From Dyadobacter fermentans DSM 18053 (GTDB taxonomy: Bacteria; Bacteroidota; Bacteroidia; Cytophagales; Spirosomataceae): 64,000 bases of DNA. The DNA lies in contig NC_013037.1 in the NCBI RefSeq assembly GCF_000023125.1, positions 2,604,001 through 2,668,000 on the forward strand, read 5' to 3'. Position numbers and translations under genes: made by a program. Below the pieces are notes generated by a model, which was not told the DNA's origin, ran no database searches, and worked only from the letters and a program-made list of their open reading frames with translations. Position 1 is the stretch's first letter, and every line of letters begins with the position of its first letter. This document shows, one piece after another, positions 1 through 14,788 of the stretch.

Positions 1-486
1 AGCCAGCGTGAGCAATCGGTTGCTTTTGGAAACATAAAAGCCCATTCGCTGGTGCATGACCGCGTACAGGTCCTTCGCTACACCGGGATGACCATCCTTT
101 TTGGTGCCGTCGGGAATTTTGTAAGGCGGAAAAATCGCGACCGGTTTGGTCCAGGTTTGCCCGTCTTTCGATGTTTGCAGCAACGTCTGCCCCGGCGGAA
201 TGTGCTCTCCAACGGGATTCGCGAGGTAGTTCAGGTAAAATGTGCCATTCCAATACGCCAGCATCGGCGCGTGGTTGTAGGTCCAGGTAATGGCCGAATC
301 CTTGCTGGCGTCGGTACGGTTGGCGCGCAATGTCTGGTACGAATGCACGCCGATGGCCGGGCTCAGTTGCCCGTGATGGTAGTCGACATTCACGAGCGTT
401 TTGCCCGTGTAGCGGATCGTGTCCTGCGCATTTGCCGCGCCCACAGCCAGGCACAAGGCCAGCATTCCGGTTAATTCTTTTTGCAT
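1..486 (-). CDS. Secreted BNR/sialidase-fold glycosidase, N-terminal part (runs off the window)
   Basis: About 162 residues are visible before the window edge. The ATG at 486 begins a clear signal peptide (MQKELTGMLALCLAVGAANA, then QDT). The mature part carries NHAPMLAYWNG and an Asp-box-like SKDGQTW followed by TKP, typical of secreted beta-propeller proteins annotated as exo-alpha-sialidase-like in Bacteroidota. The gene starts 4 bp after the stop of the GH140-like gene, so it belongs to the same leftward operon as the SusC/SusD pair. Substrate is not readable from the sequence; in pectin loci such propellers need not act on sialic acid. The family call is fairly safe, the specificity is unknown, and the catalytic residues further on are outside the window. 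Confidence 0.7.
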   Translation of the reverse strand, partial: MQKELTGMLALCLAVGAANAQDTIRYTGKTLVNVDYHHGQLSPAIGVHSYQTLRANRTDASKDSAITWTYNHAPMLAYWNGTFYLNYLANPVGEHIPPGQTLLQTSKDGQTWTKPVAIFPPYKIPDGTKKDGHPGVAKDLYAVMHQRMGFYVSKSNRLLTLA

Positions 487-490
487 AGCG

Positions 491-1948
491 TTATTTTTCC
501 AACACCAAAACCCAATCATTCCCGTTTCTAACCTCCCCGGGCGGGTTAAATGTGCGGATTCCTTTGTTTTGAATTTTTCCTAAAATCTTCGTTTCGCCGG
601 TTCGCGGATCAAACCAGCTCGCATTCAGCACTTTCCCTTGAATTTTACCCATATTGATCCTCATCTCACGCCCCGTCCAGGTGTAAATGAATGCATAATC
701 CTTGCCGCGGGTAGCAATGAGCCGGTCGTACCGCTCACCATTTTCGGCGATCAGCGATTGGTCGGGCACGCGTTCGAAATAGGGTTTCGAGCGCATTAAG
801 TTCTTTAAATGGGCCATCTGCCCTGCGCCGGGATCGTTAATCGCCTCTTCCCAGGAGGGCAGTTTGGCTGATCCTGCGGCTGGGACCGCATTTTGGTTGC
901 TTGCACTTGCCTGCACGTTCGACTGTGCGCCGCTGGTGCTTTCCGGTCGTCGCGAGTGCCGCATTTGCATGACCGCATTGTTGCCATAAGTAAACCCGCA
1001 GGCACCGGCAAAAACCGACCAGTAGGCATACCGCCGCACATCTGCCGCCGTCCAAACCGGCAGCGTTTTGTCGTGCAGGCCGTGCCAGATGTTTTCATAC
1101 GAAGGCTCGCCGTCGAGCACCGGCTTCACGGGCTCGCGCGCATAGTCGGCCTCCACGTAGCGCCAGTTGTCCTCGCCGTAACGAAGGTCTTTGGCCTCAT
1201 TATCCTGCGCATAAGTGCGGTGACCGGATTGGAACATATTGAAATCCAGCCAGTCGCGGTCATGAAACCATTTGGAAGACTGCATTCGGCCGAACGGGTG
1301 AAAAGTGATGAGATGGTTCGGATCTTCGGCGCGCAATGTGCTGCCGATGGCCTCCCATACCTCCGGGACGACATCTCCCTGGATGTCTCCACCATTGAGC
1401 CACACGATATTCGGGCGGTTGCGGTACCGCCGCGCGAGGAATTGCGCATCGGCCTTAGCCTGCGCCGCGCTCGTTTTCCCGTTCTTCACCGCATTGCCCC
1501 AAATAGGCACCATCCCGATTTTAATGCCCTTTTCCGCGGCTAGATCGACGATGTAATCGACATGGTCCCAATAATCGTATTCCGCCGCATTGTCGAAAGC
1601 CGCGCCCTCGGTCACTTTCGGCGAGCCCAGATCGCGGTTCGTCAATGCGGAATCGCCATACACATTTACCGAGCGCAATGCCTGCACTACCATCACCTGC
1701 ACCACATTAAAACCCTTTTGCTGCCGGTCGGCCAGGTACCGGGCGGCATCCTCGCGCGTGAGCCGTGTAAAAAGCAGCCAGCCGGTATCCGCCAGCCAGA
1801 AGAACGGCTTGCCGTTTTGATCCGTAAAAAACCGCCGGTTTTCCGATACTTTCAAGGTTTGCGATTGGCTATAAACAGGCTTTGTGCCGGCAATGAAGCC
1901 GGCACAAAGGAGCATGATCAATTTCAGGTTCATGCGTTTACTAACCAT
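491..1948 (-). CDS. Secreted GH140-like (DUF4038) glycosidase, apiosidase-like
   Basis: Signal peptide (MNLKLIMLLCAGFIAG) followed by an apiosidase-like TIM barrel. The opening FFTDQNGKPFFWLADTGW and the block GFNVVQVMVVQ are DUF4038 hallmarks. Candidate acid/base is Asp188 in WLNGGD and candidate nucleophile is Glu281 in VLDGEPSYE, matching the Asp/Glu arrangement known for GH140. The last about 90 residues form the 'putative collagen-binding' beta-sandwich usually attached to this family. I start at ATG 1948 (MVSKRMNLK); ATG 1933 is equally plausible. A longer reading from 2020 would overlap SusD and hide the signal peptide. The gene lies 40 bp after SusD in the same operon. Known GH140 enzymes release apiose from rhamnogalacturonan II; activity here is inferred. 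Confidence 0.82.
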   Translation of the reverse strand: MVSKRMNLKLIMLLCAGFIAGTKPVYSQSQTLKVSENRRFFTDQNGKPFFWLADTGWLLFTRLTREDAARYLADRQQKGFNVVQVMVVQALRSVNVYGDSALTNRDLGSPKVTEGAAFDNAAEYDYWDHVDYIVDLAAEKGIKIGMVPIWGNAVKNGKTSAAQAKADAQFLARRYRNRPNIVWLNGGDIQGDVVPEVWEAIGSTLRAEDPNHLITFHPFGRMQSSKWFHDRDWLDFNMFQSGHRTYAQDNEAKDLRYGEDNWRYVEADYAREPVKPVLDGEPSYENIWHGLHDKTLPVWTAADVRRYAYWSVFAGACGFTYGNNAVMQMRHSRRPESTSGAQSNVQASASNQNAVPAAGSAKLPSWEEAINDPGAGQMAHLKNLMRSKPYFERVPDQSLIAENGERYDRLIATRGKDYAFIYTWTGREMRINMGKIQGKVLNASWFDPRTGETKILGKIQNKGIRTFNPPGEVRNGNDWVLVLEK

Positions 1949-1988
1949 AAGTAATGCTTTCGATTGTACGTAAACACTTTGTAAACTA

Positions 1989-3401
1989 TTAATATCCAGC
2001 ATTCTGTGTAATCTTCGCATTCTGGTCCCGCACGATATTCGGGATCGGGAACACCAATTTGTTTTGCGTTACCGGCTTTCCTTTCGCGGTCAGCACGTCG
2101 ATGACGCGGCCGGTACGTTTCAGGTCGAACCAACGGTGGAATTCGAATGCCAGCTCCACGCGGCGCTCATGTTCGACGGCCAACGCGATCGTATTGTACT
2201 GGGCAGGATAGCCCGCGGCACCGTACAATGGCAATCCGGCCCGTTTGCGGACCTCGTTCAGGTAAACCGGGTCGCCGGTCGCTTCCGAGAGCAGCAGGAG
2301 CAGGTCGGCATAGCGCAATACCATGAAATTGTTGTTTGCCGCAATGTTCTGGTTGATCAGCGGGGCCGACTTATCCTGCCATTTTTTCGGAAATTTGGCT
2401 TTGGTAAAGTTGCCTTTCGCGTCGGTGAAGCCCGTATCGATGGAAGCCTCGCGGCGGTTGTCGCCTTTTTCGTACTCATTCCAAATGTCCTCCACGACCT
2501 GGTTCATGCCCGCGCCATAGAAGCCCAATGCATTGGAATTAGGGAAAAATTCGAGGTAATAATTGCTGTAAGGCAATGTGGCGGAGCCACCAAGGAATTG
2601 TATTTCGAAGATCGACTCTTTTGTATTCTTCGTTTTAGGGTCCCAAAGCGATGCGTACGAGGGCAACAGTTCATATTGTTTGCTATCATACACTTCTTTT
2701 AACTCCTTCACGCCATTGGCTTTATCACCCACAGCCAGGTACACTTTACCGAGCAGCGTTTGCGCGGCGCCTTTGGTGGCCCGGCCGGCGATGGCAGAAG
2801 ATGCCGGCAGTTTAGACTTCGCATCGGCCAAATCCTTGGTAATCTGCGCATAAATCTGCGCGGCGGGCGTGCGAAGGATTTCATAAGCTTCTGCGGCACT
2901 CACCGGACGCGTCACCAGCGGCACATCCCCCCAAAGCTGCACCATATTATAGTAGTACAATGAGCGCAGGAACAGCATTTCGCCTTGTGTTTGAGCCTTG
3001 TACGTCGCGTCGAGATCGGCATTCTCAATCTTTTCGAGGATGATATTGATGTTGTAAAGCGACCGGTAGAAATCCTGCCAGAACTGGTACACCATCGTGT
3101 TTGCAGGCGCCAGCGTGTAGTCGCGGAACTGCCATTTATCGGCCTGGTTACCCGAAATGTTGAAGATCGTCACGTTGTCGGACATCAGCTCGCCGGCATA
3201 GGAAACCGGCCCCTGCGGATGATACACGGTGTAAAGCGTGTTGTAGGCTGCATTGGCAGCAATGTCGAAATCCGACTTCGTTTTGTAAAAATTCTCCGCA
3301 CTGGGGTTTGAAACCGGCGCCAGTTCGAGGAATGAATCCTTGCAGCCCCAACTGGTGGCGATGAGCGCGGCAAGTGTGATTGATTTTATGATTCTTTTCA
3401 T
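1989..3401 (-). CDS. SusD/RagB-family glycan-binding lipoprotein
   Basis: Outer-membrane, surface-exposed partner of the SusC channel just upstream; it captures the oligosaccharide. The N-terminus has a lipobox (SITLAALIATSWGC, Cys at about residue 20) followed by the typical SusD opening FLELAPVSNPSAENFYKTKSD. A TPR-like helical core follows, with MLFLRSLYYYNMVQLWGDVPLV, and the C-terminal RagB signature HERRVELAFEFHRWFDLKRTG. Its 470 residues are normal for the smaller SusD type. It sits 65 bp after SusC in the same direction and is followed by the GH140-like gene, so binding of a pectic oligosaccharide is inferred from context only. Confidence 0.96.
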   Translation of the reverse strand: MKRIIKSITLAALIATSWGCKDSFLELAPVSNPSAENFYKTKSDFDIAANAAYNTLYTVYHPQGPVSYAGELMSDNVTIFNISGNQADKWQFRDYTLAPANTMVYQFWQDFYRSLYNINIILEKIENADLDATYKAQTQGEMLFLRSLYYYNMVQLWGDVPLVTRPVSAAEAYEILRTPAAQIYAQITKDLADAKSKLPASSAIAGRATKGAAQTLLGKVYLAVGDKANGVKELKEVYDSKQYELLPSYASLWDPKTKNTKESIFEIQFLGGSATLPYSNYYLEFFPNSNALGFYGAGMNQVVEDIWNEYEKGDNRREASIDTGFTDAKGNFTKAKFPKKWQDKSAPLINQNIAANNNFMVLRYADLLLLLSEATGDPVYLNEVRKRAGLPLYGAAGYPAQYNTIALAVEHERRVELAFEFHRWFDLKRTGRVIDVLTAKGKPVTQNKLVFPIPNIVRDQNAKITQNAGY

Positions 3402-3466
3402 TTGTCTTCGCTTTTTTGAGTTGCCTCAAAAGCATGGCAGCGGCCGTGCCTTCGCAGCATAAAACC

Positions 3467-6400
3467 TTAAAAATCAGCTTTAATCCCAACAGTAATCACA
3501 CGGGGCAGAGGATACGATCCATAATCAACCCCCTGAAAAGCGCCCGGCACCGGTGCATTGCCACTGCTGTACGAGCTGGAAGTTTCCATGCTCGAAGAAT
3601 AGGAAGTTGTTCCGTAAGTCGTGTTCTCAGGATCGTAGCCGATGTATTTGCTCCACAAATGCACGTTTTCCGCATTCACATAAATTCGCGCGCTGCTCAT
3701 TTTCAGCTTCGCAGCCCATTTCTGAGGCATTGCGTACGATACGCGCACATTGCGCAGGCGCAGGAACGAAGCATCTTCCACCCAGTACGACGAGAACTGC
3801 TTTTGCAACCCAAGGTAGTTCACCGATGGTTTGAAATGCTTGCCATCGCCCGGATTGCTCTCAGAGCGCCAGTAGTTATACATGCTCTCGAAAAAGTTGC
3901 GTCCATTGTCCCAGGTCCCGAGGTAGCGCACGTTGTTGTTGGCGATCTCGCCGCCGTACGAGCCCTGGAACAGGAACGATAGCTCAAAGCCTTTGTAGCC
4001 AACGGTGTTGGTAATGCCCGCCGTGAAATTCGGCTGATAGTTTCCGAGAATGGTGCGGTCGGCATCGCTGATCTTGCCGTCGCCATTCACGTCACGTACT
4101 TTCGGGTCGCCCGGCGTGGTGCTGGCATGGTGCGGGTAAGCGTCGATTTCCGCCTGATTTTTGAATACGCCGTCGAAAATGTAGCCGTAGAAGTTCGAAA
4201 CAGGCTGGCCCACTTCCGTGCGCACGGTCACCACGTTGTCGACATACTGGATCGGCGCGTTGCCCGGGCCGAGTTGCAGCACTTTGTTCCGGTTCCTTGA
4301 AAAGTTGAAATCCGTCGTCCATGTGAATGCGCCAGTGAGGTTTTTGGTAGAAATATTCAATTCCACGCCGCGGTTGCGCATTTTACCGATATTGGTCAGC
4401 TGGGTCGAGAATCCGGTAATGTCGGGCACCGGCACGAAAAGCAGCATGTCACGGGTAAGCGAGTTGTAGTATTCCGCCGAAAGGTTGATCCGGTTGTTAA
4501 ATAGCCCCACATCCACGCCCACGTTGAACTGATTGGTCTTCTCCCATTTCAGATTAGGATTTGCCAGGCTGTTCACTTTCAGTCCATTGGCCAGGTTCTG
4601 ACCATTTACATATTGCGCCGCAGCCAGCAAACTGATCGCGCCGTAGTTAGGGATCTGGTTGTTACCCGTCACGCCATAGCTCGCGCGGAGTTTCAGGTTG
4701 TTCACCGCCGTCACACCCGACATGAATGCCTCATCCGAAATCAACCAACCCGCTGAAACAGAAGGAAAATAGCCCCATTTGTTGTTCTCGCCAAAGCGCG
4801 ACATTCCATCGCGGCGCATCGCTCCCGTCAGGAAGTAGCGGTTTTTGAAATTATACTGCACCCGCGCCAGGTACGACAGCAGCGACCATTCGCTGGCTGT
4901 GGTGTTCCCTGCGGTAACTGTTCCGGCATTGAGCGTGTGCACGAGGTCGTTCGGGAAGTTGTTGGCAGCCACGTACATCGTTTCGTCGCGCTGTTTTTGG
5001 CTGGTGTAACCCAGCAAACCGGTGAATGAGTGCTCACCGAGCTTCTTATCGTAGGTCAACGTATTCTCACTCAGCCAGTTCAACATGTACGCGTCGCTTG
5101 CATTGCCCTGCGCCGCGAGCACAGCCGAGTAGCCGTATTTTTGTTTATCGTTCCAATAAAAATGGTTGCGGGTATTGTACAAGTTGCCGCTGAGGCTGGT
5201 GCGGAACCGCAGGCCGTCGATGAGCTCGTATTCCAGGTAACCCGTCGCAAGGGTATTGAACGACTTCCGGCCCTTATCCACCTCCCGGGTGAGCGAGTAC
5301 GGATGCCAGAGGTTCATATCCGCATAGGGCGTAAAGCGGAACCAGGTCGAGTTGGGATCGCGGAAACCGAGGTTGCCGTTTTCATTGTAAACCGGGAAAA
5401 TCGGTGAGCTTTGCAGGCCGAGACTGATCACGTCGCTTTTACCCTGCGTTCCTTCCGTGCGGTCGAAAATGGAGGTAATACCAATGTTCAAGCCCGCGGT
5501 GAGCCTTTTGGTAATTTGTGTTTTGAGGTTCGATCGAAGCGCGAGGCGTTTGTAGTAGTTCGCGTCGAGAACGGCCGTTTGGTCGAGGTAGGCGCCCGAA
5601 AACATATATTGCGTCTTGTCGGTGCCTCCGGTAACCGTCAGTTGCGCGTTGAACGACGGTGCCGTGCGGAACATCACATCTTGCCAGTCCGTACCTTTTC
5701 CAAACTGCTGCGGATTTTGTGTAAAATCATCCGGGATACGCAATGTGGCCGGGCGGGCGCTGTTCGGGTCGCTCGCATTGCCGCCCTGTGCTGTCCAGGC
5801 ATTGTTTTTAGCATCGGTGTAAGTTTCGATAAACTGCTGCGCGTCCATCATTTTCACGCGGCGCGTCACTTTTTGCGAGCCATATTCCACATTGGCGCTC
5901 ACATTCACCTTGCCGGGCTTGCCCGTTTTGGTGGTCACAATGATTACCCCGCTCGATCCGCGCGACCCGTAAATGGCTGCGGACGAAGCGTCTTTCAGCA
6001 CTTCTATCGACTCGATATCCTGCGGGTTGATAAGGTTCAGGTTAAAATTTTCCAGCGGCACACCGTCCACCACGATCAGCGGATTGGTACCGGCGGTAAT
6101 GGAACTGATCCCGCGGATCTTGATCACCGGCGATGAGCCCGGTGCACCCTGCGATTGCGAAATATTTACCCCGGGGAGCGTTCCGGCCAGCGACTGGGTA
6201 ACGTTACTGAATGAACGGTCTTTGAATTTATCGTAATTCACGGAAATCACCGCGCCGGTCACCGCCCGCTTGCTCTGCGTTCCGTAACCGACCACCACTA
6301 CCTCTTCCAGCGATTTGTTTTCCGGCACGAGCTTCACGCCGATGTCGGTGCGCGCGCCTACCGTTTCCTCTACGGATTTGTAACCTACAAAACTGAATAC

Positions 6401-6619
6401 CAGCACCGTAGCTTGATCCGGCACGTCGATCTGGAACGCACCGTCGGCATTGGTGGTCGTTCCGCGTTGCGTGCCTTTGATCACGACACTCACACCCGGC
6501 AGCGGGTCGGCGTCGCTCACACCCGTCACCCTGCCCTTCACGGACAGCGTCTGAGCATGCAATGCCGGAGCGACCAGCAGGCATACCAGAATGATGCGTA
6601 AGAGTTGTTTCATAAACAT
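3467..6619 (-). CDS. SusC/RagA-family TonB-dependent outer-membrane transporter
   Basis: 1,050 residues: signal peptide (MKQLLRIILVCLLVAPALHA), a CarboxypepD_reg-like domain (about 24-105, SVKGRVTGVSDADPLPGVSV), a plug with LEEVVVVGYGTQSKRAVTGA and IESIEVLKDASSAAIYGSRG, and a 22-strand-type barrel ending VITVGIKADF. ATG 6613 is an alternative start two codons in. There is no N-terminal STN/secretin domain, so it does not appear to signal to a cognate anti-sigma factor. It heads the leftward locus with SusD and GH140, and shares a 242-bp divergent promoter region with the RuBisCO-like gene, which suggests co-regulation. The transported glycan is inferred to be pectic. Confidence 0.96.
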   Translation of the reverse strand: MFMKQLLRIILVCLLVAPALHAQTLSVKGRVTGVSDADPLPGVSVVIKGTQRGTTTNADGAFQIDVPDQATVLVFSFVGYKSVEETVGARTDIGVKLVPENKSLEEVVVVGYGTQSKRAVTGAVISVNYDKFKDRSFSNVTQSLAGTLPGVNISQSQGAPGSSPVIKIRGISSITAGTNPLIVVDGVPLENFNLNLINPQDIESIEVLKDASSAAIYGSRGSSGVIIVTTKTGKPGKVNVSANVEYGSQKVTRRVKMMDAQQFIETYTDAKNNAWTAQGGNASDPNSARPATLRIPDDFTQNPQQFGKGTDWQDVMFRTAPSFNAQLTVTGGTDKTQYMFSGAYLDQTAVLDANYYKRLALRSNLKTQITKRLTAGLNIGITSIFDRTEGTQGKSDVISLGLQSSPIFPVYNENGNLGFRDPNSTWFRFTPYADMNLWHPYSLTREVDKGRKSFNTLATGYLEYELIDGLRFRTSLSGNLYNTRNHFYWNDKQKYGYSAVLAAQGNASDAYMLNWLSENTLTYDKKLGEHSFTGLLGYTSQKQRDETMYVAANNFPNDLVHTLNAGTVTAGNTTASEWSLLSYLARVQYNFKNRYFLTGAMRRDGMSRFGENNKWGYFPSVSAGWLISDEAFMSGVTAVNNLKLRASYGVTGNNQIPNYGAISLLAAAQYVNGQNLANGLKVNSLANPNLKWEKTNQFNVGVDVGLFNNRINLSAEYYNSLTRDMLLFVPVPDITGFSTQLTNIGKMRNRGVELNISTKNLTGAFTWTTDFNFSRNRNKVLQLGPGNAPIQYVDNVVTVRTEVGQPVSNFYGYIFDGVFKNQAEIDAYPHHASTTPGDPKVRDVNGDGKISDADRTILGNYQPNFTAGITNTVGYKGFELSFLFQGSYGGEIANNNVRYLGTWDNGRNFFESMYNYWRSESNPGDGKHFKPSVNYLGLQKQFSSYWVEDASFLRLRNVRVSYAMPQKWAAKLKMSSARIYVNAENVHLWSKYIGYDPENTTYGTTSYSSSMETSSSYSSGNAPVPGAFQGVDYGSYPLPRVITVGIKADF

Positions 6620-6637
6620 TCTAGCGATTAGAGAAAG

Positions 6638-6762
6638 AAGTGGTTTTCTTTTTATTTCTTTTATATTCTAATTTTTACGAAAAATAGGAACAATTTTACT
6701 TATAAAAAATATCCGCAAGTATTTTATGACTTATTTTTATAAAAAATTGTTGAAAACCACTT
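6638..6762. repeat. 11-bp inverted repeat in the divergent promoter region
   Basis: AAGTGGTTTTC at 6638-6648 and its exact reverse complement GAAAACCACTT at 6752-6762 flank about 103 bp of very AT-rich DNA between SusC and the RuBisCO-like gene. The spacing is too long for a terminator hairpin; a looped regulatory pair or chance are both possible. Confidence 0.4.
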
Positions 6763-6794
6763 TTTGTCACTAGTCGGTGCATAAATAATCGGAG

Positions 6795-6808
6795 TTTGGT
6801 ATACCAAA
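6795..6808. promoter_or_regulatory. GntR-type (UxuR/ExuR-like) operator palindrome
   Basis: TTTGGTATACCAAA is a perfect 14-bp palindrome, 53 bp before the ATG of the RuBisCO-like gene and 175 bp before SusC on the other strand. The core TTGGTATACCAA equals the binding core known for hexuronate regulators of the GntR/FadR group. No GntR gene is in the window, so the regulator would be elsewhere. Its position between two divergent catabolic units suggests it controls one or both. Confidence 0.6.
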
Positions 6809-6823
6809 TCGAACTAAAAAGCA

Positions 6824-6848
6824 ATACATTCGTAAGCATACATTAGTA
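6824..6848 (+). repeat. Direct repeats upstream of the RuBisCO-like gene
   Basis: ATACATTCGTA (6824-6834) and ATACATTAGTA (6838-6848) are two 11-mers with one mismatch, 14 bp apart, ending 13 bp before the ATG at 6862. They may be a regulator site or leader feature; nothing else in the region explains them. Confidence 0.35.
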
Positions 6849-6861
6849 TATCAGGAAACAA

Positions 6862-8124
6862 ATGGAAAGAATAACAGCGAGATATTACATCGAAACCCCA
6901 TACGCAGTTGAAAAAGCAGCCGCTGTGCTCGCAGGCGAACAGTCCTCGGGGACGTTTGTGGCAGTCCCGGGCGAAACGGAAGAACTCAAAAACCGCTTCG
7001 CGGCGCGGGTGGAGCTTATCGAACTCCTGGAAACCGTTTCCGAACCGGCCATTCCGGGCGCATCCTCGCCCGACGGACAATACCGGCGCGCCCATGTGGA
7101 AGTTTCCTGGTCGGTCGAAAACTTCGGCCATAACCTGCCCATGCTCGTTTCTACCTTACAAGGCAACCTCTACGAAATCACCCAGTTCACGGGCCTGAAA
7201 CTCCTGGACATTCATTTCCCCGAAACCTATGCGAGCCATTACCGCGGTCCGCGTTTCGGCATCGGAGGCTGCCGTTCGCTCACTGGTGTGGACTCCGGCC
7301 GCCCGCTCATCGGCACGATCATCAAGCCTAGCGTAGGCCTCACGCCCGCACAAACGGCCGAAACTGTGGGAATTCTCGCCCAGGCAGGTATTGATTTCGT
7401 AAAAGATGACGAGTTGATGGCCTCCACGGCCAACTCACTATTCGAAGAGCGGGTGGACGCGGTGATGCAGGTAATCAACCGCCACGCCGACCGTACGGGC
7501 AAAAAAGTGATGTATGCGTTCAATATCAGTGATGAAATGGACGAAATGCTTCGGAAATACGAACATATCGTCCGGTCCGGCGGCACTTGCGCGATGATCA
7601 GCATCAACAGCACGGGACTTGCGGCGGCGAAACGCATTTGCGACATCGGCGAGCTCGCGATACATGGCCACCGCAACGGCTGGGGAATGCTCAACCGCCA
7701 TCCCCTGCTCGGCATCGAATTCCCGGCTTACCAGAAACTCTGGCGCCTTGCGGGCGTGGACCAGCTGCACGTGAACGGCATCCGGAACAAATTCTGGGAA
7801 TCGGACGACTCCGTGGTGCGCTCGATCGCATCTTGCCTGCATCACGCACCGCTGGATAAGCCGGTATTGCCGGTGGTATCTTCCGGACAATGGGGCGGAC
7901 AGGCATTCGAAACCTACCGCCGCACGCAAACCACCAACCTGCTCTACATGGCCGGCGGGGGCATTATGGCCCATCCCGGCGGCCCCGCCGCAGGCGTAAC
8001 CGCATTGCAGCAAGCCTGGGAAGCGGCCGTAGGCGGGCTAACCCTCGCCGAAGCGGCCCGCGACTATCCCGAATTCGGAAAATCGGTAGAAAAATTCGGC
8101 CAACTCCACTTCGACCGGGCATGA
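6862..8124 (+). CDS. RuBisCO-like protein (form IV), candidate sugar-acid phosphate decarboxylase/hydrolase
   Basis: 420 residues with the full RuBisCO large-subunit layout. The metal/carbamate motif is intact (Lys181, Asp183, Glu184 in FVKDDE). Also kept are Lys155 in GTIIKP, the His-Arg pair at 270-271, His303, a loop-6 lysine at 310 spaced exactly seven residues after His303, Ser340, the AGGG loop (364-367) and Asn102. The second lysine of the KPK motif is Ser157, and the Trp of the N-terminal TW motif is Phe32, so CO2 fixation is unlikely. The stop overlaps the start of a DUF1537 kinase by 4 bp. RuBisCO-like proteins paired with DUF1537 kinases include enzymes acting on 3-oxo-isoapionate 4-phosphate in apiose catabolism; that assignment is inference supported by neighbouring apiosidase-like genes. 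Other phosphorylated 3-oxo sugar acids remain possible. Confidence 0.9.
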   Translation: MERITARYYIETPYAVEKAAAVLAGEQSSGTFVAVPGETEELKNRFAARVELIELLETVSEPAIPGASSPDGQYRRAHVEVSWSVENFGHNLPMLVSTLQGNLYEITQFTGLKLLDIHFPETYASHYRGPRFGIGGCRSLTGVDSGRPLIGTIIKPSVGLTPAQTAETVGILAQAGIDFVKDDELMASTANSLFEERVDAVMQVINRHADRTGKKVMYAFNISDEMDEMLRKYEHIVRSGGTCAMISINSTGLAAAKRICDIGELAIHGHRNGWGMLNRHPLLGIEFPAYQKLWRLAGVDQLHVNGIRNKFWESDDSVVRSIASCLHHAPLDKPVLPVVSSGQWGGQAFETYRRTQTTNLLYMAGGGIMAHPGGPAAGVTALQQAWEAAVGGLTLAEAARDYPEFGKSVEKFGQLHFDRA

Positions 8125-9506
8125 GCGCAAAAAATCTGCTTTTGGCCTTCTATGGCGACGATTTTACCGGCTCAACCGACGTCCTGGAAACCCTCGAACG
8201 CGCCGGCATCCGCACGGCGCTATTCATGGCGCCGCCCACGCCGGAAGACCTGGTCCGCTTTCCCGACATCCGGGCATTCGGCATTGCAGGCATGACGCGC
8301 GCCATGACGCCCCCGCAAATGGAGAAAACGCTTATGCCGGCATTCGCGGCGCTCAAAAAATCCGGCGCGCGGCATATTCATTATAAGGTTTGCTCCACAT
8401 TCGATTCTTCACCTGCCATCGGCAGCATTGGCAAGGCCATTGAGGTGGGGATTGAAATGTTTAATCCGCGCTTCGTGTCGCTGATCGTCGCGGCGCCCGC
8501 ACTGGGGCGGTACTGCGCGTTCGGGAACCTGTTTGCACGGATGGGCATCGGCAGCAACGGCCACATCCACCGGCTCGACCGCCATCCAAGCATGAGCAAG
8601 CACCCCACCACACCAGCCGACGAGGCCGATCTGCGGCTGCATTTGAGCAAACAAACCTCAAAAACCTGCGGATTGCTCGATATTCTGCAAATTGAAGGCG
8701 AGCCGCGGGAAGCGGCCGCTGCGCTCGAAAACACGGTTCGGGAGAACGATATTGTGCTTTTCGACGCGCTATACCCGCACCAGATGTTACGCATCGGCGA
8801 GCTGATCGATCCTTTCGGTAGTCCGAACGCACCGCAGTTTTCCGTCGGCTCATCGGGCGTTGAAATGGCGCTTACGGCCTGCTGGAATAATGCCGGCATC
8901 GCACGAAACCGCACCGAATGGCCCGAACCCGGCGAAGTGTCGCCGCTGCTTGTCGTATCGGGCAGCTGCTCCCCCGTCACATCCCGCCAAATCACCTACG
9001 CACTGGCGCGGGGTTTTGAAGAAATTGCGCTGGACACCCCCGCTATCGCAACCGGAATGCATGATCCGACCTTCGCTGATGATACACAAAAGGTCGTCGA
9101 ATTCTTGCGTCGCGGGCGGAGCGTGATCATACACACCAGCAAAAGCACGAAGGATGAACGTTTCACGGCATCCAATAATATCCTCAAAAACAAGGGATTA
9201 TCTGCAACTGAAATTCAAACCCGCACTTCTTCCCTTTACGGCGAAGCGCTCGGCCGCATTGCCCGCGCGGCAATGGCCAGCATTTCAGTCCGACGGCTGG
9301 TCATCGCCGGGGGCGACACATCCGGTGCCGTCGCCAAAACATTGGGTATCAACGCCCTTTCGATGATTGCCCCCCTATCGCCCGGAGCACCACTATGCCG
9401 CGCACACGCCCCCGGCTCCCCGGCAGACGGCCTGGAAATAAATTTCAAAGGCGGACAAGTTGGCGGCGAGGACTATTTTGAAGTGCTGAGAAGAGGGAAG
9501 TTTTGA
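8121..9506 (+). CDS. DUF1537 four-carbon acid sugar kinase family protein
   Basis: 461 residues, starting at the ATG that overlaps the previous stop (ATGA), a sign of translational coupling; a longer in-frame reading from 7890 lies inside the RuBisCO-like gene and is not real. The N-terminal domain opens with LLAFYGDDFTGSTDVLETLE, the family signature. The C-terminal nucleotide-binding domain has VVSGSCSPVTSRQ and the glycine-rich LVIAGGDTSGAVAKTLG near residues 395-412. The family phosphorylates 3-oxo-tetronate-type or branched sugar acids; paired with a RuBisCO-like protein the likely order is phosphorylation first, then C-C cleavage or decarboxylation. It is convergent with the permease gene, with a 3-bp gap. 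Confidence 0.92.
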   Translation: MSAKNLLLAFYGDDFTGSTDVLETLERAGIRTALFMAPPTPEDLVRFPDIRAFGIAGMTRAMTPPQMEKTLMPAFAALKKSGARHIHYKVCSTFDSSPAIGSIGKAIEVGIEMFNPRFVSLIVAAPALGRYCAFGNLFARMGIGSNGHIHRLDRHPSMSKHPTTPADEADLRLHLSKQTSKTCGLLDILQIEGEPREAAAALENTVRENDIVLFDALYPHQMLRIGELIDPFGSPNAPQFSVGSSGVEMALTACWNNAGIARNRTEWPEPGEVSPLLVVSGSCSPVTSRQITYALARGFEEIALDTPAIATGMHDPTFADDTQKVVEFLRRGRSVIIHTSKSTKDERFTASNNILKNKGLSATEIQTRTSSLYGEALGRIARAAMASISVRRLVIAGGDTSGAVAKTLGINALSMIAPLSPGAPLCRAHAPGSPADGLEINFKGGQVGGEDYFEVLRRGKF

Positions 9507-9509
9507 ATT

Positions 9510-10826
9510 TCACATTGATTGCTCCTTAATACCTTCAATTTCAGTCTCTTTTTCCGGCTCTGAGTTCGTTTTCCTTCGCCAGTAGTTAGCCAGAATGGAG
9601 CCGGAGATGTTCATCCATGGGCTGAAAACGGCTGCGGCTAGCCCAACGGTGCCTAGTTTACCCATCGTACCGGCCAGGCCGGAGGCCATGCCGCCGTTTT
9701 GCAAACCTACTTCAAATGCCATCGTTCGCGCGGAGGCCTTGTCGAGGCCCAGGAGCCTGCTCAGCCAATAGCCGAAGAAATAACCGGCCGAATTGTGGAC
9801 CACGGAGACGAAAAAGAGCAGAAACCCGACCTGCATCAGGTTATCGCGCCCGGCGGCGGTGGTTACAGTGGTGAAGTAAATGATGCCGAACATAGAAACG
9901 TAAGGCATGTGTTTATCGAGATTTTTAAATGATAATGTGATTAAATGATAGCCCAGCCCCACCAGCACGGCGCCTGCGAAGAATGACAATACTTCGAGCG
10001 ATTGCAAAACCGGCTCGGACACCGCCTGCGCAAACCACGCCCACAAGCCTAATGTCAGCGCGCCTAGCCAGGCCAAACACGCGAACGCTAAGCCATAAAC
10101 GTTTCGCCGCGCGCGACTGGTTGCGGTTTTGAGGAAGTCATGGATGAGCGCCGCTCCGATGGGCACAATCACGATTTTGATAATCTCCATCATCATGTCC
10201 AGAAACCGGATATGGATGAGCGTTCCTGCGAGCATTTTCATGAGGAACGGCGTCAGAAACGGGGCAGCCAGGGTGGTCATGGCCGTCACCGCGACGGACA
10301 GCACGAGGTTTGCCCGGGCAATGAATACCATCACGTTTGAAGCCAGACCGCTCGAACAGGAGCCGAGCAAAATGATCCCGGCCGCGATCTCGGGATCGAA
10401 ATGGAAGATTTTGGTCAATGCAAAACCGGTTAGCGGCATAATGGTGAAATGGCTGCAAAGCCCGATGAGCACGCCCTTACCGGACGTGGCCAGCTCGGAG
10501 AAGTCCCGCAGGCTCATTTGAATGCCCATTCCGAACATTACAAACTGCACCACGATAAGTATCAGCCATTTGTTGCGCAGGTCGAAGTCGCCTGCATGAA
10601 GAAAAGATTCCGGGTATGTCATTCCCGCCACCACCGCGGCGACGATCCAGGCTGTGTATTGATACCCTTGTAAAAACGGGATAGCCCCAATACCGATAGC
10701 GCATGCCACTGCCGTTCCCAATGCCGCGGCCGCGATTAAATCGCCGGCGTTTGTCAGCCATGCAAATAGCAGGAATGCGAAGCCAATTCCCGCAAGCAGC
10801 AAGCAAATCTTCCTGATTATCAACAT
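9510..10826 (-). CDS. BASS-family (bile acid:sodium symporter-like) permease
   Basis: 438 residues with about ten hydrophobic segments. The motif ILLGSCSSGLASNVMVFIAR and the later RTMAFEVGLQNGGMASGLAG are the paired conserved crossover regions of the BASS/SBF family. It starts 2 bp after the racemase-fold gene stop, so the two form one leftward unit. BASS members take up organic anions with sodium; together with a sugar-acid kinase and RuBisCO-like protein next door, uptake of a sugar acid or its precursor into the cytoplasm is plausible. The charged C-terminal tail (EPEKETEIEGIKEQ) is probably cytoplasmic. Substrate is unknown. Confidence 0.85.
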   Translation of the reverse strand: MLIIRKICLLLAGIGFAFLLFAWLTNAGDLIAAAALGTAVACAIGIGAIPFLQGYQYTAWIVAAVVAGMTYPESFLHAGDFDLRNKWLILIVVQFVMFGMGIQMSLRDFSELATSGKGVLIGLCSHFTIMPLTGFALTKIFHFDPEIAAGIILLGSCSSGLASNVMVFIARANLVLSVAVTAMTTLAAPFLTPFLMKMLAGTLIHIRFLDMMMEIIKIVIVPIGAALIHDFLKTATSRARRNVYGLAFACLAWLGALTLGLWAWFAQAVSEPVLQSLEVLSFFAGAVLVGLGYHLITLSFKNLDKHMPYVSMFGIIYFTTVTTAAGRDNLMQVGFLLFFVSVVHNSAGYFFGYWLSRLLGLDKASARTMAFEVGLQNGGMASGLAGTMGKLGTVGLAAAVFSPWMNISGSILANYWRRKTNSEPEKETEIEGIKEQSM

Positions 10827-10828
10827 AA

Positions 10829-11497
10829 TTACACCTGATTAATCACCGATGCCAGGTACCGGACCGCCTCCGGTGGACTGGCCAGGATCGGAACGGTCCG
10901 CTCCGCCTCTGAAAGCGTATCCACCACCCGGGCCATGGACGCCTGCGCGAGCAGGATCACATCTACCTGGGCCGAAAGTTCGCGCAGCGCCTGGGCGACC
11001 ATTTGATCGTGCAATGCGGGATTTCCACCCATCAACGCCTCGAAAGCGCCTTCGCACAACCGGCTCGTTAGTACGATTTCCTTGCCGGCTATCCGGGCGC
11101 GGCGCTGTACAAGGTCCGCCGTGGGTTCGAGCGTGGTCGGCAGAGTGGCCACTACGCCTATCCGCCTGCCTTTCGACACCGCCATATCCGCCATCGGCTG
11201 ATCCACGCGCAACACCGGCACCGACACGAGTGCCGCAGCCGCTTCCACCGCCCGACCGATGGACGAGCATGTCACCAGAATCCGGTCAGCCCCGGCCTCC
11301 TCCGCCGACGCTACATGGTCGACAACACGCCGGGCCGTCGCCGGCAGCAGTTTACCATTGGCAATTACATCCTTAATCAAGCTGTCGTCTACGATATTGA
11401 ACACGTTTACACCCGGCAGATGCTCATTACACAATTGCTGAAAAATCGGCACGAGCGTAGCCGAGGTGTGGATCAGGCCTAATTTCGCTGGTTTCAT
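10829..11497 (-). CDS. Aspartate/glutamate/hydantoin racemase-superfamily protein with one catalytic Cys
   Basis: 222 residues from ATG 11497 (MKPAKLGLIHTSATLVP). A GTG at 11542 would add 15 residues with no family resemblance. The N-terminal half keeps the Cys in ILVTCSSIGRAV. The C-terminal counterpart, normally a Cys after a run of small hydrophobics, reads ILLAQASMARV, with Ala. Racemases of this fold use both cysteines; single-Cys members such as arylmalonate decarboxylase do other chemistry. I therefore expect an isomerase, decarboxylase or tautomerase-like role rather than amino-acid racemisation. It is co-transcribed with the permease and faces the RuBisCO-like/kinase pair, so a step in the same sugar-acid route is inferred. 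Confidence 0.8.
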   Translation of the reverse strand: MKPAKLGLIHTSATLVPIFQQLCNEHLPGVNVFNIVDDSLIKDVIANGKLLPATARRVVDHVASAEEAGADRILVTCSSIGRAVEAAAALVSVPVLRVDQPMADMAVSKGRRIGVVATLPTTLEPTADLVQRRARIAGKEIVLTSRLCEGAFEALMGGNPALHDQMVAQALRELSAQVDVILLAQASMARVVDTLSEAERTVPILASPPEAVRYLASVINQV

Positions 11498-11615
11498 GTA
11501 GGAAGTTTTCGGAAAAGTCGGGATTGAACTTTCGGTTGACACAAATGAATGATTTTCGTTTGCATTCTAATTCTTTCGAAAATTAACTAAATCAAATCGC
11601 ATTAAAAAGCAAAAC

Positions 11616-11648
11616 CCAAAAAAAGACCGGACATGATCCGGTCTTTTT
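11616..11648 (-). terminator. Intrinsic terminator for the FGGY kinase/DUF5060 operon
   Basis: Perfect 11-bp stem (AAAAGACCGGA at 11621-11631 with TCCGGTCTTTT at 11637-11647) around a 5-nt loop. On the minus strand it is followed by a run of seven T. It lies 40 bp past the stop of the glycosidase gene. Confidence 0.85.
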
Positions 11649-11687
11649 AATCCTTTACTATCTATGTTAACCAATCAAAAGTCGTGA

Positions 11688-13274
11688 TCACTCCCGGTAC
11701 TCTTTAATCCGCAAGGCCAGGTATGGCGTCATCGGCAGGCGGATCGACGTTCGCTTTTTATCAAATATGCGATAGTCGGTTGTTTCGGCGATTTCGAATA
11801 TCTCCGGCCGCTCATCGATGGTCATATTCCAGGTATCGATCACCTCCACCTTGAACTTTCGCCCCGTTTTCGGTCCGCCTTTGCGCGGCAGGCTGAATTC
11901 CCATTCCGGCTGCATGTTTTTACCAAAATAAACGAGGTAATAGCTGCTATCGGCACGGGAGGTGTGATGGTCTTTCCAAGGGTCGGACAGTTCGAGCGGC
12001 CCCGGCGCTTCTTCCAGGATTTTCTTCAAAAATCCTATTCGCTTCGGACTGCTGCCGATCAGCCTTCCTCCTTTTGCCCAAAAAATCGTGTCGCCTGCAT
12101 TCTTGTAGGTTTCCCCGTGCGTCACATACGTGCCCGCAATCACGCCTTGCCAGAATGCCTCCGTCATTTCCTCGCCGCTCAAATGCCCCCATCGCTGCTG
12201 CAAATCGCCTTCGTAACACACCTCATCGTACACCATCGGTTTGAAAAACACATCCCTCAGCAAGGTAGCGCGGCCAAAATCTTCGACCGTGGAGCCGTTT
12301 TGAATGCTTACGTGCGTGTATTCGGGCTTCCAGTTGTCATAATAAACGCTCCCGTTATGGATCGAACAAAGATGGCCGTACGGATCGGCGCTAACGACAG
12401 CCTTCGTGTAATCATCCCAGTCGGCGCGCGGCTTCGTTTTCACATAGTCGAACTCGTTCGCCAACGACCACCACACGTTGCGGAACGATGCCAGCCGGGC
12501 GGTGAGATAGCGGATGTATTTTATATCGTTCTCTTTACCAAGACTGTCAAATCCCCAATGACCCTTATCGTAGGGATGGAAAATGATCACATCGGCTTCA
12601 ATTCCCAGTTTTTTAAGGTCGTCTATCCGCTTTTCTAGGTGTTGAAAAAATGCCGGCTCGAACCGTGAGAGGTCCCATTGAAACTTCGGTTTTCCCTTCA
12701 CATCCTTTGTTTCCGACTTTTTCACGTACGGATAAAACGGCGGCTCGTTTTCGACGTGCGAGTAATATTTTGGAAACACACACATTCTCACCTTGTTAAA
12801 AGGCGCATCGGTGAGGGTTTTCAATGTAATTTCTTCTAATCCTTCCGGCTGGTGCGTCCACGCGTAAAGTGTTGTACCAAAGGGATAATAGCGTTTTCCA
12901 TCCGCATACTTAAAATGATATGTATCAGCCACTTGTACAGGACCATGATTATCCGGGCCTGGCTCAATGCAGGTAAACGAGCCGGTTTTGCCATTCAATG
13001 GCTTACTGTTACTCGTGGTTTTGTATTTCCATTCGCCCGTTTGCTTCGGCATGAAACGAATTTTGTACAGTCCGTTCCCGTCGTAAAAACCAGCCACTTT
13101 CACTTTTTCTTTACCGCTGGAAAACTCCGCCGATAAATTTACGTCGGCAAACGGGTTGCCCGTTTGTGGCCCGGGGAGTGTCAGTTCGAAGCGCTCCCAA
13201 CGTTCTACGCGTTCCTGCGCAAAAGCGGAAACCGCAGCCCAAAGAAAAACAAAAAGGAAATAACCGTATTTCAT
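11688..13274 (-). CDS. Secreted DUF5060-DUF4038 glycoside hydrolase
   Basis: 528 residues from ATG 13274, chosen because it begins the signal peptide (MKYGYFLFVFLWAAVSAFA) and leaves a 2-bp gap to the upstream kinase. Residues 22-110 are a DUF5060 beta-sandwich (ERWERFELTLPGPQTGNPF). A DUF4038-type TIM barrel follows with YYPFGTTLYAW, and a C-terminal DUF5605-like beta domain ends the protein. Candidate catalytic residues are Glu274 in SLANEF (acid/base) and Glu351 in VYDEVCYEGD (nucleophile). The architecture differs from the GH140-like enzyme at 491-1948, although both have the apiosidase-like barrel. It is coupled to a polyol-type kinase, so it may release the sugar or polyol that the kinase phosphorylates; this is inference. 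Confidence 0.85.
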   Translation of the reverse strand: MKYGYFLFVFLWAAVSAFAQERVERWERFELTLPGPQTGNPFADVNLSAEFSSGKEKVKVAGFYDGNGLYKIRFMPKQTGEWKYKTTSNSKPLNGKTGSFTCIEPGPDNHGPVQVADTYHFKYADGKRYYPFGTTLYAWTHQPEGLEEITLKTLTDAPFNKVRMCVFPKYYSHVENEPPFYPYVKKSETKDVKGKPKFQWDLSRFEPAFFQHLEKRIDDLKKLGIEADVIIFHPYDKGHWGFDSLGKENDIKYIRYLTARLASFRNVWWSLANEFDYVKTKPRADWDDYTKAVVSADPYGHLCSIHNGSVYYDNWKPEYTHVSIQNGSTVEDFGRATLLRDVFFKPMVYDEVCYEGDLQQRWGHLSGEEMTEAFWQGVIAGTYVTHGETYKNAGDTIFWAKGGRLIGSSPKRIGFLKKILEEAPGPLELSDPWKDHHTSRADSSYYLVYFGKNMQPEWEFSLPRKGGPKTGRKFKVEVIDTWNMTIDERPEIFEIAETTDYRIFDKKRTSIRLPMTPYLALRIKEYRE

Positions 13275-13276
13275 AA

Positions 13277-14788
13277 TCAATGTGTTACACAAATTTGAGG
13301 CGCACTACTCACCGCTTCCTGCCAGCCGCGGTAAGCCGCCTTCACCGCCTCGTTGTTCACTTTCGGTGCTACCGAAGAATGGTTTTCACTTAATTTTTGC
13401 AAATATTCAATGCCTGGATAAACGCCGGAATACAAGCCCGAAAGATAAGCCGCACCGAGAGCGGAAACTTCGGGAAAACCAAGGTTCACGACCGGCTTTT
13501 CAAGCAGATCGGCCAGCATCTGTACGACGAAATTATTGGAGGTCAACCCTCCGTCGATCTTCAATTCACGCAACGCAATGCCGGTATCCGACTCCATGGC
13601 CACGATCACGTCCTTGATCTGGAAAGGGATGGATTCGAGGGCAGCGCGCACAATATGATTCTTGTTTGAATTGAATGTCAGACCGGTAATGGACGCCTTG
13701 CGGTTCATATCCCAGTGCGGCGCGCCAAGTCCGCTAAACGCCGGCACCAGGTACACCCCGCCGCTGTCTTTCACCGATCGCGCCATTGCCTCCGTCTCCC
13801 GAATGTCGCTGAACAGTTCGAGATGGGTTTTGAGCCATTCGATTGTCGCTCCGCACGTTACGATCACGCCTTCCAGCGCGTATTCTACCCTTTCGCCTGC
13901 ACTCCAACCGATCGTTGTGACCATTCCCTGCTGCGATGGCTTCGGCTCAGGACCGATGTTCATCAGAATGGACGAACCGGTGCCCAAGGTCGCCTTGGCA
14001 ATTCCCGGCCCAAAGCACCCCTCGCCAAAAGCGGCGGCATGCGAGTCGCCGATCATCGCGGTGATAGGTATTGCCTCTGGAAACAGACCGTTAAAATCCG
14101 TTTCACCAAAATGCGACGATGACGACTGAATATCAGGCAAATGCAATCCTTCCAGCCCAAATACACTGATCAATTCCGCGTCCCACGAAAGCGTTTCCAG
14201 GTTAAAAAACAGCGTCCGCGACGCGTTGGTATGATCCGTGAGATATGCTTTCCCATTGGTGAGTTTATGCAGCAGCCATGTATCGACGGTCCCAAAAAAC
14301 GCATTTCCCCCCGCAACCGCCGTTTTCACGCGTTCATTATGAAGGTTCAGCCATATCACCTTGGACCCTGAAAAATAAGGGTCGGCCAGAAGGCCCGTTT
14401 TCTGCCGGATCATTTCTTCCAGACCCTCCGCACGCAACTGCTCGCAGACGGCCGTCGACCGTTTACATTGCCAAACCACCGCATTGTGCAGCGGCGCGCC
14501 CTTGTTATCCCAAAGCACAAAAGTTTCCCGCTGATTTGAAATACCGCACGAACGGATATCCTCTATACGTCCTTCTTTGGACGTGAAATCCGCCACGCAT
14601 TTGGCAACCGACTTCAATACATTCTCATAAATCTCTTGCGGGTCCTGCTCTACCAGCCCGCCATCGAGGTACATGGTGTGCAGCGGCTCGCTGCCGCGCG
14701 CCACAACCTTTCCCTTATCATTAAAAATGACGGTTTTGGTACTACTCGTACCCTGATCGATCGCCAGCACAAATGGGCCGTTCAACAT
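13277..14788 (-). CDS. FGGY carbohydrate kinase, glycerol-kinase-like with altered substrate pocket
   Basis: 503 residues, full-length FGGY kinase: AIDQGTSSTKTVIF at the N-terminus (ATP phosphate loop), ISNQRETFVLWD, DPYFSGSK, GDSHAAAFGEG and the C-terminal DGGLTSNNFVVQMLADLL. By alignment to E. coli GlpK, Arg87, Glu88, Tyr138 and Asp248 match the glycerol-binding set. The Gln after the catalytic Asp is Ser249, and the Phe lining the pocket is Ser273 (GTGSS instead of GTGCF). A larger or more polar polyol or branched sugar is therefore likelier than glycerol. Automatic naming as glpK would be risky: no glycerol facilitator or dehydrogenase is adjacent, and the downstream partner is a secreted glycosidase. 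Confidence 0.85.
   Translation of the reverse strand: MLNGPFVLAIDQGTSSTKTVIFNDKGKVVARGSEPLHTMYLDGGLVEQDPQEIYENVLKSVAKCVADFTSKEGRIEDIRSCGISNQRETFVLWDNKGAPLHNAVVWQCKRSTAVCEQLRAEGLEEMIRQKTGLLADPYFSGSKVIWLNLHNERVKTAVAGGNAFFGTVDTWLLHKLTNGKAYLTDHTNASRTLFFNLETLSWDAELISVFGLEGLHLPDIQSSSSHFGETDFNGLFPEAIPITAMIGDSHAAAFGEGCFGPGIAKATLGTGSSILMNIGPEPKPSQQGMVTTIGWSAGERVEYALEGVIVTCGATIEWLKTHLELFSDIRETEAMARSVKDSGGVYLVPAFSGLGAPHWDMNRKASITGLTFNSNKNHIVRAALESIPFQIKDVIVAMESDTGIALRELKIDGGLTSNNFVVQMLADLLEKPVVNLGFPEVSALGAAYLSGLYSGVYPGIEYLQKLSENHSSVAPKVNNEAVKAAYRGWQEAVSSAPQICVTH

Follow-up and report, generated by a model that had tools for sequence, protein, structure and literature searches.

The closest described relatives of the genes treated here belong to the apionate pathway of apiose catabolism, in which, as Carter is said to have described in 2018, OiaK acts as a 3-oxo-isoapionate kinase and OiaX as a 3-oxo-isoapionate-4-phosphate decarboxylase. 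OiaT, in turn, is a 3-oxo-isoapionate-4-phosphate transcarboxylase/hydrolase. L-Aceric acid is 3-C-carboxy-5-deoxy-L-xylose, a branched acidic sugar of side chain B of rhamnogalacturonan-II (RG-II), which occurs throughout vascular plants. The names ApnO, ApsD, LerI, EryI, OiaT and OiaC are those that we take to be current for the respective enzymes, and ApnL, OiaX, OiaK and aceric acid hydrolase are names from NCBIfam or record annotation; no NCBIfam model of OiaT came up in the searches. The apionate-pathway reactions of RuBisCO-like proteins (RLPs) are quoted in passages of PMC6302742, and BT1003 of Bacteroides thetaiotaomicron appears in part of PMC10850190 as a characterised GH127 aceric acid hydrolase. 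Here we analyzed a 64,000-nucleotide stretch of the genome of Dyadobacter fermentans DSM 18053 (the window; C1:2604001-2668000 of a 6.97-Mb genome in a single contig), in which an RLP gene (6862-8124, plus strand, 420 residues) is followed by a gene for a DUF1537 (four-carbon acid sugar) kinase (8121-9506, plus strand). An original prediction, made from the window alone, had assigned this pair to apiose catabolism. Our comparison indicates instead that these two genes are part of a four-gene operon conserved in Bacteroidota, which would serve the catabolism of aceric acid, a reading of substrate and reactions from sequence and gene context to which we give a probability of about 0.68.

The operon was delineated in the best 80 of 296 relatives from species genomes, all of them Bacteroidota, to which the window and a Rufibacter plasmid locus (L082) were added to give 82 loci, some of them short contigs or cut by contig ends. 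Counts out of 80 omit L046 and L061, in which the RLP open reading frame (ORF) was missed by the ORF caller, and counts out of 81 refer to tblastn searches of L002-L082 (E <=1e-8 and >60 bits). The RLP, the kinase, a PF01177 Asp/Glu-racemase-fold protein and a BASS-family carrier form a conserved four-gene operon in Bacteroidota: among the 82 loci, the RLP ORF was found in 80, the kinase family in 76, the PF01177 protein in 75 and the carrier in 74. The exact order RLP-kinase-PF01177-BASS on one strand is kept in 57 of 80 loci, some of the others being truncated at contig ends. In Dyadobacter, the genes for the carrier (9510-10826, minus strand in the window; PF01758, 107.6 bits) and the PF01177 protein (10829-11542, minus strand) come after the kinase on the opposite strand. 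The genera and groups with the operon include Dyadobacter, Pontibacter, Mucilaginibacter, Pedobacter, Spirosoma, Hymenobacter, Chitinophagaceae, Flavobacterium and Salegentibacter, and its flanks differ widely between loci. In L033, L049 and L058 the kinase lies outside the operon, with other genes in place (BT_1020-like, a type that we take to be the RG-II Dha hydrolase; in L049 also GH43-like), and in L013 only a partial kinase match stands beside the RLP. These loci give no support to the idea that the kinase is dispensable, as each of the four genomes holds one full kinase copy elsewhere (in G322 on the same contig). One strain, Pontibacter qinzhouensis, has two RLP genes, one with the operon (L014) and one with this partial kinase match (L013).

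The RLP matches PF00016 with 213.3 bits (cut-off 30.1), as the single match in the whole genome, and PF02788 with 34.3 bits; its closest named relatives are proteins of Dyadobacter. Every one of the 80 RLP ORFs compared carries K155, S157, K181, D183, E184, H270, R271, H303 and K310. By RuBisCO numbering, we take K181 to be the carbamylated Lys, D183 and E184 the metal ligands, H270 and H303 the active-site His residues, and K310 the Lys of loop 6; S157 occupies the position of the second Lys of KPK. The active-site residues originally listed, S157 included, were thus correct throughout. The one annotated OiaX compared (L083) differs from the operon RLP and the other related RLPs in having Ala instead of S157 and Gln instead of H303. 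The operon RLPs (84 sequences) are set apart from 14 others by nine positions, including Q100, V339 and M363, which adjoin the active-site segments N102, S341 and GGG. Position 339 is Val in the operon RLPs (type B) and Phe in 11 of the 14 others; at a guess, the smaller residue could make room for an extra methyl group. Methionine-salvage RLPs (MtnW) were considered and rejected, with scores of 114.2 bits on TIGR03332 (cut-off 513.6) and 157.4 bits on NF007095 (cut-off 409). As to the kinase, the ORF list opens its frame at 7890, and the ATG at 8121 gives a protein of 461 residues and the ATGA (8121-8124) that overlaps the RLP stop, in line with the 4-bp overlap first noted. It contains PF07005 (183.4 bits) and PF17042 (126.2 bits). 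The best NCBIfam matches of the pair are OiaX for the RLP (NF042437, 491.5 bits) and OiaK for the kinase (NF042436, 427.7 bits), both below the cut-off of 700, so that the families named at the outset are indeed the nearest ones.

The link to aceric acid comes from the genomic companion of the operon. Just left of the window (L095:14590-16644 = genome C1:2600590-2602644, minus strand), next after a BT_1020-like gene, lies a GH127 gene whose product scores 1181.7 bits on the 'aceric acid hydrolase' model NF049879 (1181.6 in the genome search; cut-off 950). The BT_1020-like gene itself (L095:16654-18519, minus strand; PF24067, 398.5 bits) reaches into the window with its N-terminal end (1-519, minus strand) and runs on to the left of it. 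In 26 of 80 loci, more than for any other gene, it is a GH127 gene that immediately precedes the RLP on its strand (from overlapping to 127 bp apart); in another 20 loci the upstream neighbor is on the other strand, and in seven the gap exceeds 300 bp. Within the fetched stretch, a GH127 hydrolase is present in 40 of 82 loci.

At the level of whole genomes the association is complete in one direction. We searched 45 operon genomes, consisting of 44 hand-picked from the 80 loci (mostly isolates, not a random choice) and the D. fermentans genome, and all 45 exceeded the NF049879 cut-off, with 1093.8-1208.7 bits. In a sample of the class, 11 of 296 genomes did so, including all five with an operon-type RLP, three genomes with weak RuBisCO-family matches (103-135 bits) being counted as not operon-type; in a sample of the order the figure was 21 of 242, including all six with an operon-type RLP. 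Both samples include the D. fermentans genome and overlap each other; when all samples were joined, the hydrolase was above cut-off in 54 of 54 distinct operon genomes. The background without the operon was 6 of 291 genomes in the class and 15 of 236 in the order (Fisher p 2.5e-8 and 2.1e-7, own genome included and phylogeny not corrected), and when both RLP types in the order were pooled the proportion was 6 of 8 against 15 of 234 (p 5.2e-6, again without correction for phylogeny). Since 6 and 15 genomes carry the hydrolase alone, it does not need the operon. Such a one-way association suits an accessory operon whose catabolic steps come after that of the hydrolase, but would also be compatible with a link to RG-II use as a whole. 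A separate GH127 group, with two copies per genome at about 700-770 bits on NF049879 and thus below 950 (G366, G391, G403, G414, G436, G445, G454, G467, G495 and others), is possibly of related specificity.

These observations enable us to propose a putative route. Initially, the GH127 hydrolase would free aceric acid, which the BASS carrier, a predicted inner-membrane importer, would bring into the cell. The nearest named family of this carrier is the ketopantoate/pantoate carrier PanS (NF047939, 205.7 bits, below the cut-off of 400). Afterwards, the PF01177 protein, as a predicted aldose-ketose isomerase, would shift the carbonyl from C1 to C2 and yield HOCH2-CO-C(OH)(COOH)-CH(OH)-CH3. This keto-aceric acid is a beta-keto acid that equals 3-oxo-isoapionate with CH(OH)CH3 replacing one CH2OH. 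The DUF1537 protein would then phosphorylate the C1 hydroxyl, and finally the RLP would act on a beta-keto acid resembling the RuBisCO intermediate, most likely as a transcarboxylase/hydrolase giving 3-phosphoglycerate and lactate. Alternatively, the RLP would be a decarboxylase giving 5-deoxypentulose 1-phosphate, and an aldolase would split the latter to dihydroxyacetone phosphate and acetaldehyde. No oxidation would be needed, because aceric acid is already at the right oxidation level, and no oxidoreductase gene occurs in the operon. Given the substrate, we lean slightly toward the transcarboxylase/hydrolase chemistry, because S157 and H303 are unlike the Ala and Gln of the annotated OiaX and no match to LerI or EryI was found in the 81 loci. 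The chain as a whole, in which these four proteins take aceric acid to 3-phosphoglycerate and lactate, the RLP moves the carboxylate to the next carbon before hydrolysis, and a single-cysteine racemase fold has been recruited as an aldose-ketose isomerase, is put forward as a tentative proposal, somewhat less likely than not.

For the apionate pathway, the reference is a set of 12 non-Bacteroidota RLP loci hand-picked from 366 plasmid records (50 listed). On the annotated proteobacterial plasmids, the RLP/kinase pair is accompanied by a PGDH_C-type protein (PF16896), a Gfo/Idh dehydrogenase and a long 'hypothetical protein'. By elimination, the first of these is presumably ApnO (D-apionate oxidoisomerase); the last, scanned in Shinella only, scores 312.8 bits on the ApnL model NF049900, below the cut-off of 750. 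An ApnO-type gene lies inside the fetched stretch in 9 of these 12 loci. In the 81 Bacteroidota loci, tblastn queries for ApnO, ApnL, ApsD, LerI and EryI gave no match above 60 bits. PF16896 matched five of six plasmid records and two of two type A genomes used as positive controls, and it is absent from 53 of 54 operon genomes (our own, 43 of 44 and 9 of 9). The searches of the 6.97-Mb D. fermentans genome and of the class sample (0 of 296) gave no PF16896 match, and no control matched in the same searches either. The single operon genome with PF16896 is that of Spirosoma profusum, where it lies on another contig than the operon; this ApnO (L094) stands beside an AP_endonuc_2 TIM barrel of OiaC-like type and an apiosidase-like protein. 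NF049900 also found nothing in the D. fermentans genome, a weaker test than that for ApnO, as no control matched and the Shinella protein itself falls below the cut-off. Likewise, no genome of the class (0 of 296) or the order (0 of 242) has an OiaX above the NF042437 cut-off. The upstream oxidation genes, which had already been reported missing from the window, are therefore without a match in the whole genome as well (PF16896 and NF049900), including the oxidoisomerase for which a genome search had been suggested.

The same order contains the converse situation. In two genomes, G383 and G479, the RLPs reach 407.5 and 469.6 bits on the OiaX model, lower than the 491-521 bits of operon-type RLPs, and the best matches to the aceric acid hydrolase model (428.5 and 731.6 bits) stay below its cut-off. 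In both, PF16896 lies about 2 kb from the RLP and an ApnL-like gene (28%-36% identity to the queries) about 2 and 6 kb from it, and their fetched stretches (15 and 19.5 kb) contain no PF01177 or BASS match. Within one phylum, the RLP/kinase pair accordingly accompanies either ApnO, or the aceric acid hydrolase together with the PF01177 protein and the carrier. In midpoint-rooted trees, the type B RLPs form one clade (support 100/97 with 24 rows and 100/99 with 34 rows), and the RLPs of G383 and G479 group with the ApnO-linked RLPs, to which the operon RLPs are 51%-54% identical; the annotated OiaX sits on a long branch next to the type B clade. The placement among apionate-pathway relatives that the original prediction had proposed as a check therefore put the operon RLPs in a clade of their own. 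G479 (L173) also encodes two apiosidase-like proteins, one ApsD-like and one OiaC-like protein. Both L094 and L173 are clusters of apionate type in Bacteroidota that hold ApnO with apiosidase-like and OiaC-like proteins; L173 adds the RLP, the kinase and the ApnL-like and ApsD-like proteins. Elsewhere, in Azospirillum (L166) and Agrobacterium (L170), RLP-DUF1537 pairs occur with SDR-type dehydrogenases and TRAP or KDG-permease carriers, and no ApnO match was found in the fetched stretch; possibly they represent a third front end of the same RLP-kinase module.

The pair could still be the OiaX/OiaT-OiaK end of an apionate pathway with unrecognized upstream enzymes, as its best NCBIfam matches, the apiosidase-like proteins in the window and the existence of Bacteroidota RLP clusters with ApnO and ApnL-like genes (L172 and L173) might suggest. 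However, both cut-offs of 700 are missed by a wide span, ApnO is found in one operon genome only, the usual partners are the PF01177 protein and the carrier rather than ApnO, ApnL or ApsD, and the hydrolase accompanies the operon in all 54 genomes examined. In addition, only 7 of 81 loci, all of Dyadobacter, have an apiosidase-like gene in the vicinity of the RLP, and the same island holds a separate candidate for an apiose route, described below. We thus set the apionate assignment aside on the ApnO and ApnL searches and the converse genomes: it is quite improbable, and the operon RLP is very probably not an apionate enzyme. The operon might alternatively degrade some other branched hydroxy acid of RG-II or of plants that RG-II degraders would encounter too, for example a 2-C-carboxy sugar acid, or aceric acid in lactone or oxidised form. 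Such a compound would suit the BASS carrier, which points to an acidic substrate, the requirement of RLP chemistry for a C-branched alpha-hydroxy beta-keto acid, and the flanking genes, which encode RG-II type glycosidases in general. Aceric acid, however, gives an acid of this kind by isomerisation alone, and no gene adjoins the RLP more often than that of its hydrolase, which makes another acid unlikely.

With aceric acid retained as the preferred substrate, we next consider the isomerisation. By fold and family score the PF01177 protein belongs to the Asp/Glu racemases; C92 and Q200 are invariant in 38 of 38 alignment rows, and the second of the two catalytic Cys residues of these enzymes was not found. 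Q200 sits where this Cys would be expected, a pairing read by extension, as the alignment to 1b73 stops just before that Cys. A two-Cys racemase mechanism is unlikely because of this invariant Gln. Structural comparison of the model returned mostly racemases, with a maleate isomerase at rank 50, and no sugar isomerase is among the matches listed, which does not exclude an isomerase role. Given the substrate, we regard the chance that this protein is the isomerase as even or slightly better. It is possible, if rather doubtful, that another aldose isomerase makes the ketose and the PF01177 protein has a different role, such as epimerising an intermediate; this is a variant of the aceric acid reading, and the odds of the two overlap. 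The variant is favored by the racemase fold of the PF01177 protein, by an island protein with an L-fucose isomerase C-terminal domain (L095:10104-11564) and, in Rufibacter, by a protein annotated as L-fucose isomerase close to the hydrolase. Against it, the island isomerase gene lies outside the operon, whereas the PF01177 gene is retained in 75 of 82 loci, and the Gln at the second Cys position makes classical racemase chemistry unlikely. Several observations weigh against the aceric acid reading or parts of it. PF01177 homologues with 46%-48% identity lie amid amino-acid genes in both Rhizobium loci looked at, which leaves the isomerase role unproven, and the fold relatives listed are, as said, mostly racemases. 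No hydrolase was found near the RLP in about half of the loci (stretches of <=10 kb on each side), and six of the 15 genomes of the order with the hydrolase alone are Dyadobacter. General RG-II degradation could underlie the association seen across genomes. Moreover, a Croceibacterium plasmid has the RLP, the kinase and a PF01177 homologue, and no GH127 above cut-off in a search of the plasmid only.

On this plasmid (NZ_CP156083; L088, L155), the RLP-kinase pair lies behind a GH127-like protein, which scores 87 bits on NF049879 and was for that reason dropped as an independent proteobacterial case. At a different place on the same plasmid, the PF01177 homologue (51%) adjoins a DUF5060 glycosidase, an arrangement shared with the window; the plasmid has no PF16896 match. 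In L011 (2401-9994), L012, L015, L019, L036 and L055, a second conserved module immediately precedes the RLP or lies a short way upstream of it, and parts of this module occur in L025, L026, L037, L060, L068 and L076. By Pfam matches of the L011 members, it comprises two solute-binding-protein-like genes, two CaiB-type CoA-transferases, a Gfo/Idh protein, a MaoC dehydratase and a carrier of the MFS type, and it may serve another rare RG-II acid.

The surrounding island looks of RG-II type, in keeping with the pectin island first proposed. Left of the RLP it encodes an apiosidase-type glycosidase (491-2020, minus strand; PF13204, 388.8 bits, and PF12904), a SusD-like outer-membrane lipoprotein (1989-3401, minus strand; PF14322 and PF07980) and a SusC-like TonB-dependent transporter (3467-6619, minus strand; TIGR04056, 926 bits). 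Beyond the operon follow a DUF5060/apiosidase-like/DUF5605 glycosidase (11688-13292, minus strand; PF16586, PF18310 and a weak PF13204 match of 53 bits) and a GlpK-like FGGY kinase (13277-14788, minus strand; NF000756, 556 bits, above the cut-off of 498; TIGR01311, 558.8 bits, below the cut-off of 590). Both apiosidase-like proteins are thus real, their longest ORFs extending 72 and 18 bases past the ends first given. A DUF5703_N protein at 15579-17933 (380 bits), whose family recurs in 17 of 82 RLP loci, is likely a further RG-II island enzyme, with its function unassigned.

A non-oxidative apulose (transketolase) route for apiose was reportedly also described by Carter in 2018. On the left flank (L095 = genome C1:2586001-2604600; 2417-12466, minus strand), the island encodes a DUF2291-type sugar ABC importer, a split transketolase, the isomerase-type protein mentioned above and a DeoR regulator. 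The importer binding protein is 44%-46% identical to those of three ApnO loci (L083, L168 and L169). Judged by this gene content, the left-flank genes and the FGGY kinase, a candidate apulose kinase, may constitute such a route. No NCBIfam model names these proteins as an apiose route, and the nearest model of the isomerase is sulfoquinovose isomerase (95.8 bits versus a cut-off of 700). In Segetibacter (L051), a homologue of the FGGY kinase follows transketolase and importer genes and is separated by 65 bp from the RLP downstream of it. Further homologues of the candidate route occur in L018, at a greater distance upstream of the RLP, and within the loci L020 and L077.

If true, our reading would provide an aceric acid route in one compact operon spread over many genera of Bacteroidota, and a new substrate for RuBisCO-like proteins. 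The apionate-type and aceric-acid-type RLPs of one phylum would then form a clean pair for studying how the RuBisCO fold switches substrate. It would also show that ApnO should be present before apiose catabolism is assigned to an RLP/DUF1537 pair. A literature search, mostly of titles and abstract openings, returned no catabolic route for free aceric acid and no RLP tied to RG-II, and the only link between the two met in it was a sentence on apiose in the passages of PMC6302742.

In summary, the operon can be placed among the known systems as follows. Its companion conforms to the BT1003-type hydrolase, exceeding the family cut-off (1181.7 versus 950), and is an upstream glycosidase outside the four operon genes. 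The PF01177 protein shares 12%-19% identity with the Asp/Glu/hydantoin racemases of this family (1jfl, 1b73) in the 20 best structural matches, and differs from them by the invariant Gln at their second Cys position. The RLP resembles OiaT in that it shares S157 and H303 with the ApnO-linked RLPs, the annotated OiaX excepted, and in that no downstream isomerases were seen in the loci, whereas its separate clade, the 51%-54% identity and the lack of ApnO in 53 of 54 genomes set it apart. From OiaX/OiaK the operon differs in its scores far below cut-off, in S157 and H303 versus Ala and Gln (L083), and in its partners, the PF01177 protein, the carrier and the companion hydrolase standing in place of ApnO, ApnL, ApsD, LerI and EryI. 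It is nevertheless reminiscent of OiaX/OiaK in the tandem of RLP and DUF1537 kinase with the same active-site set of Lys, Asp and Glu, for which the same kind of phosphorylated branched beta-keto acid would be expected.

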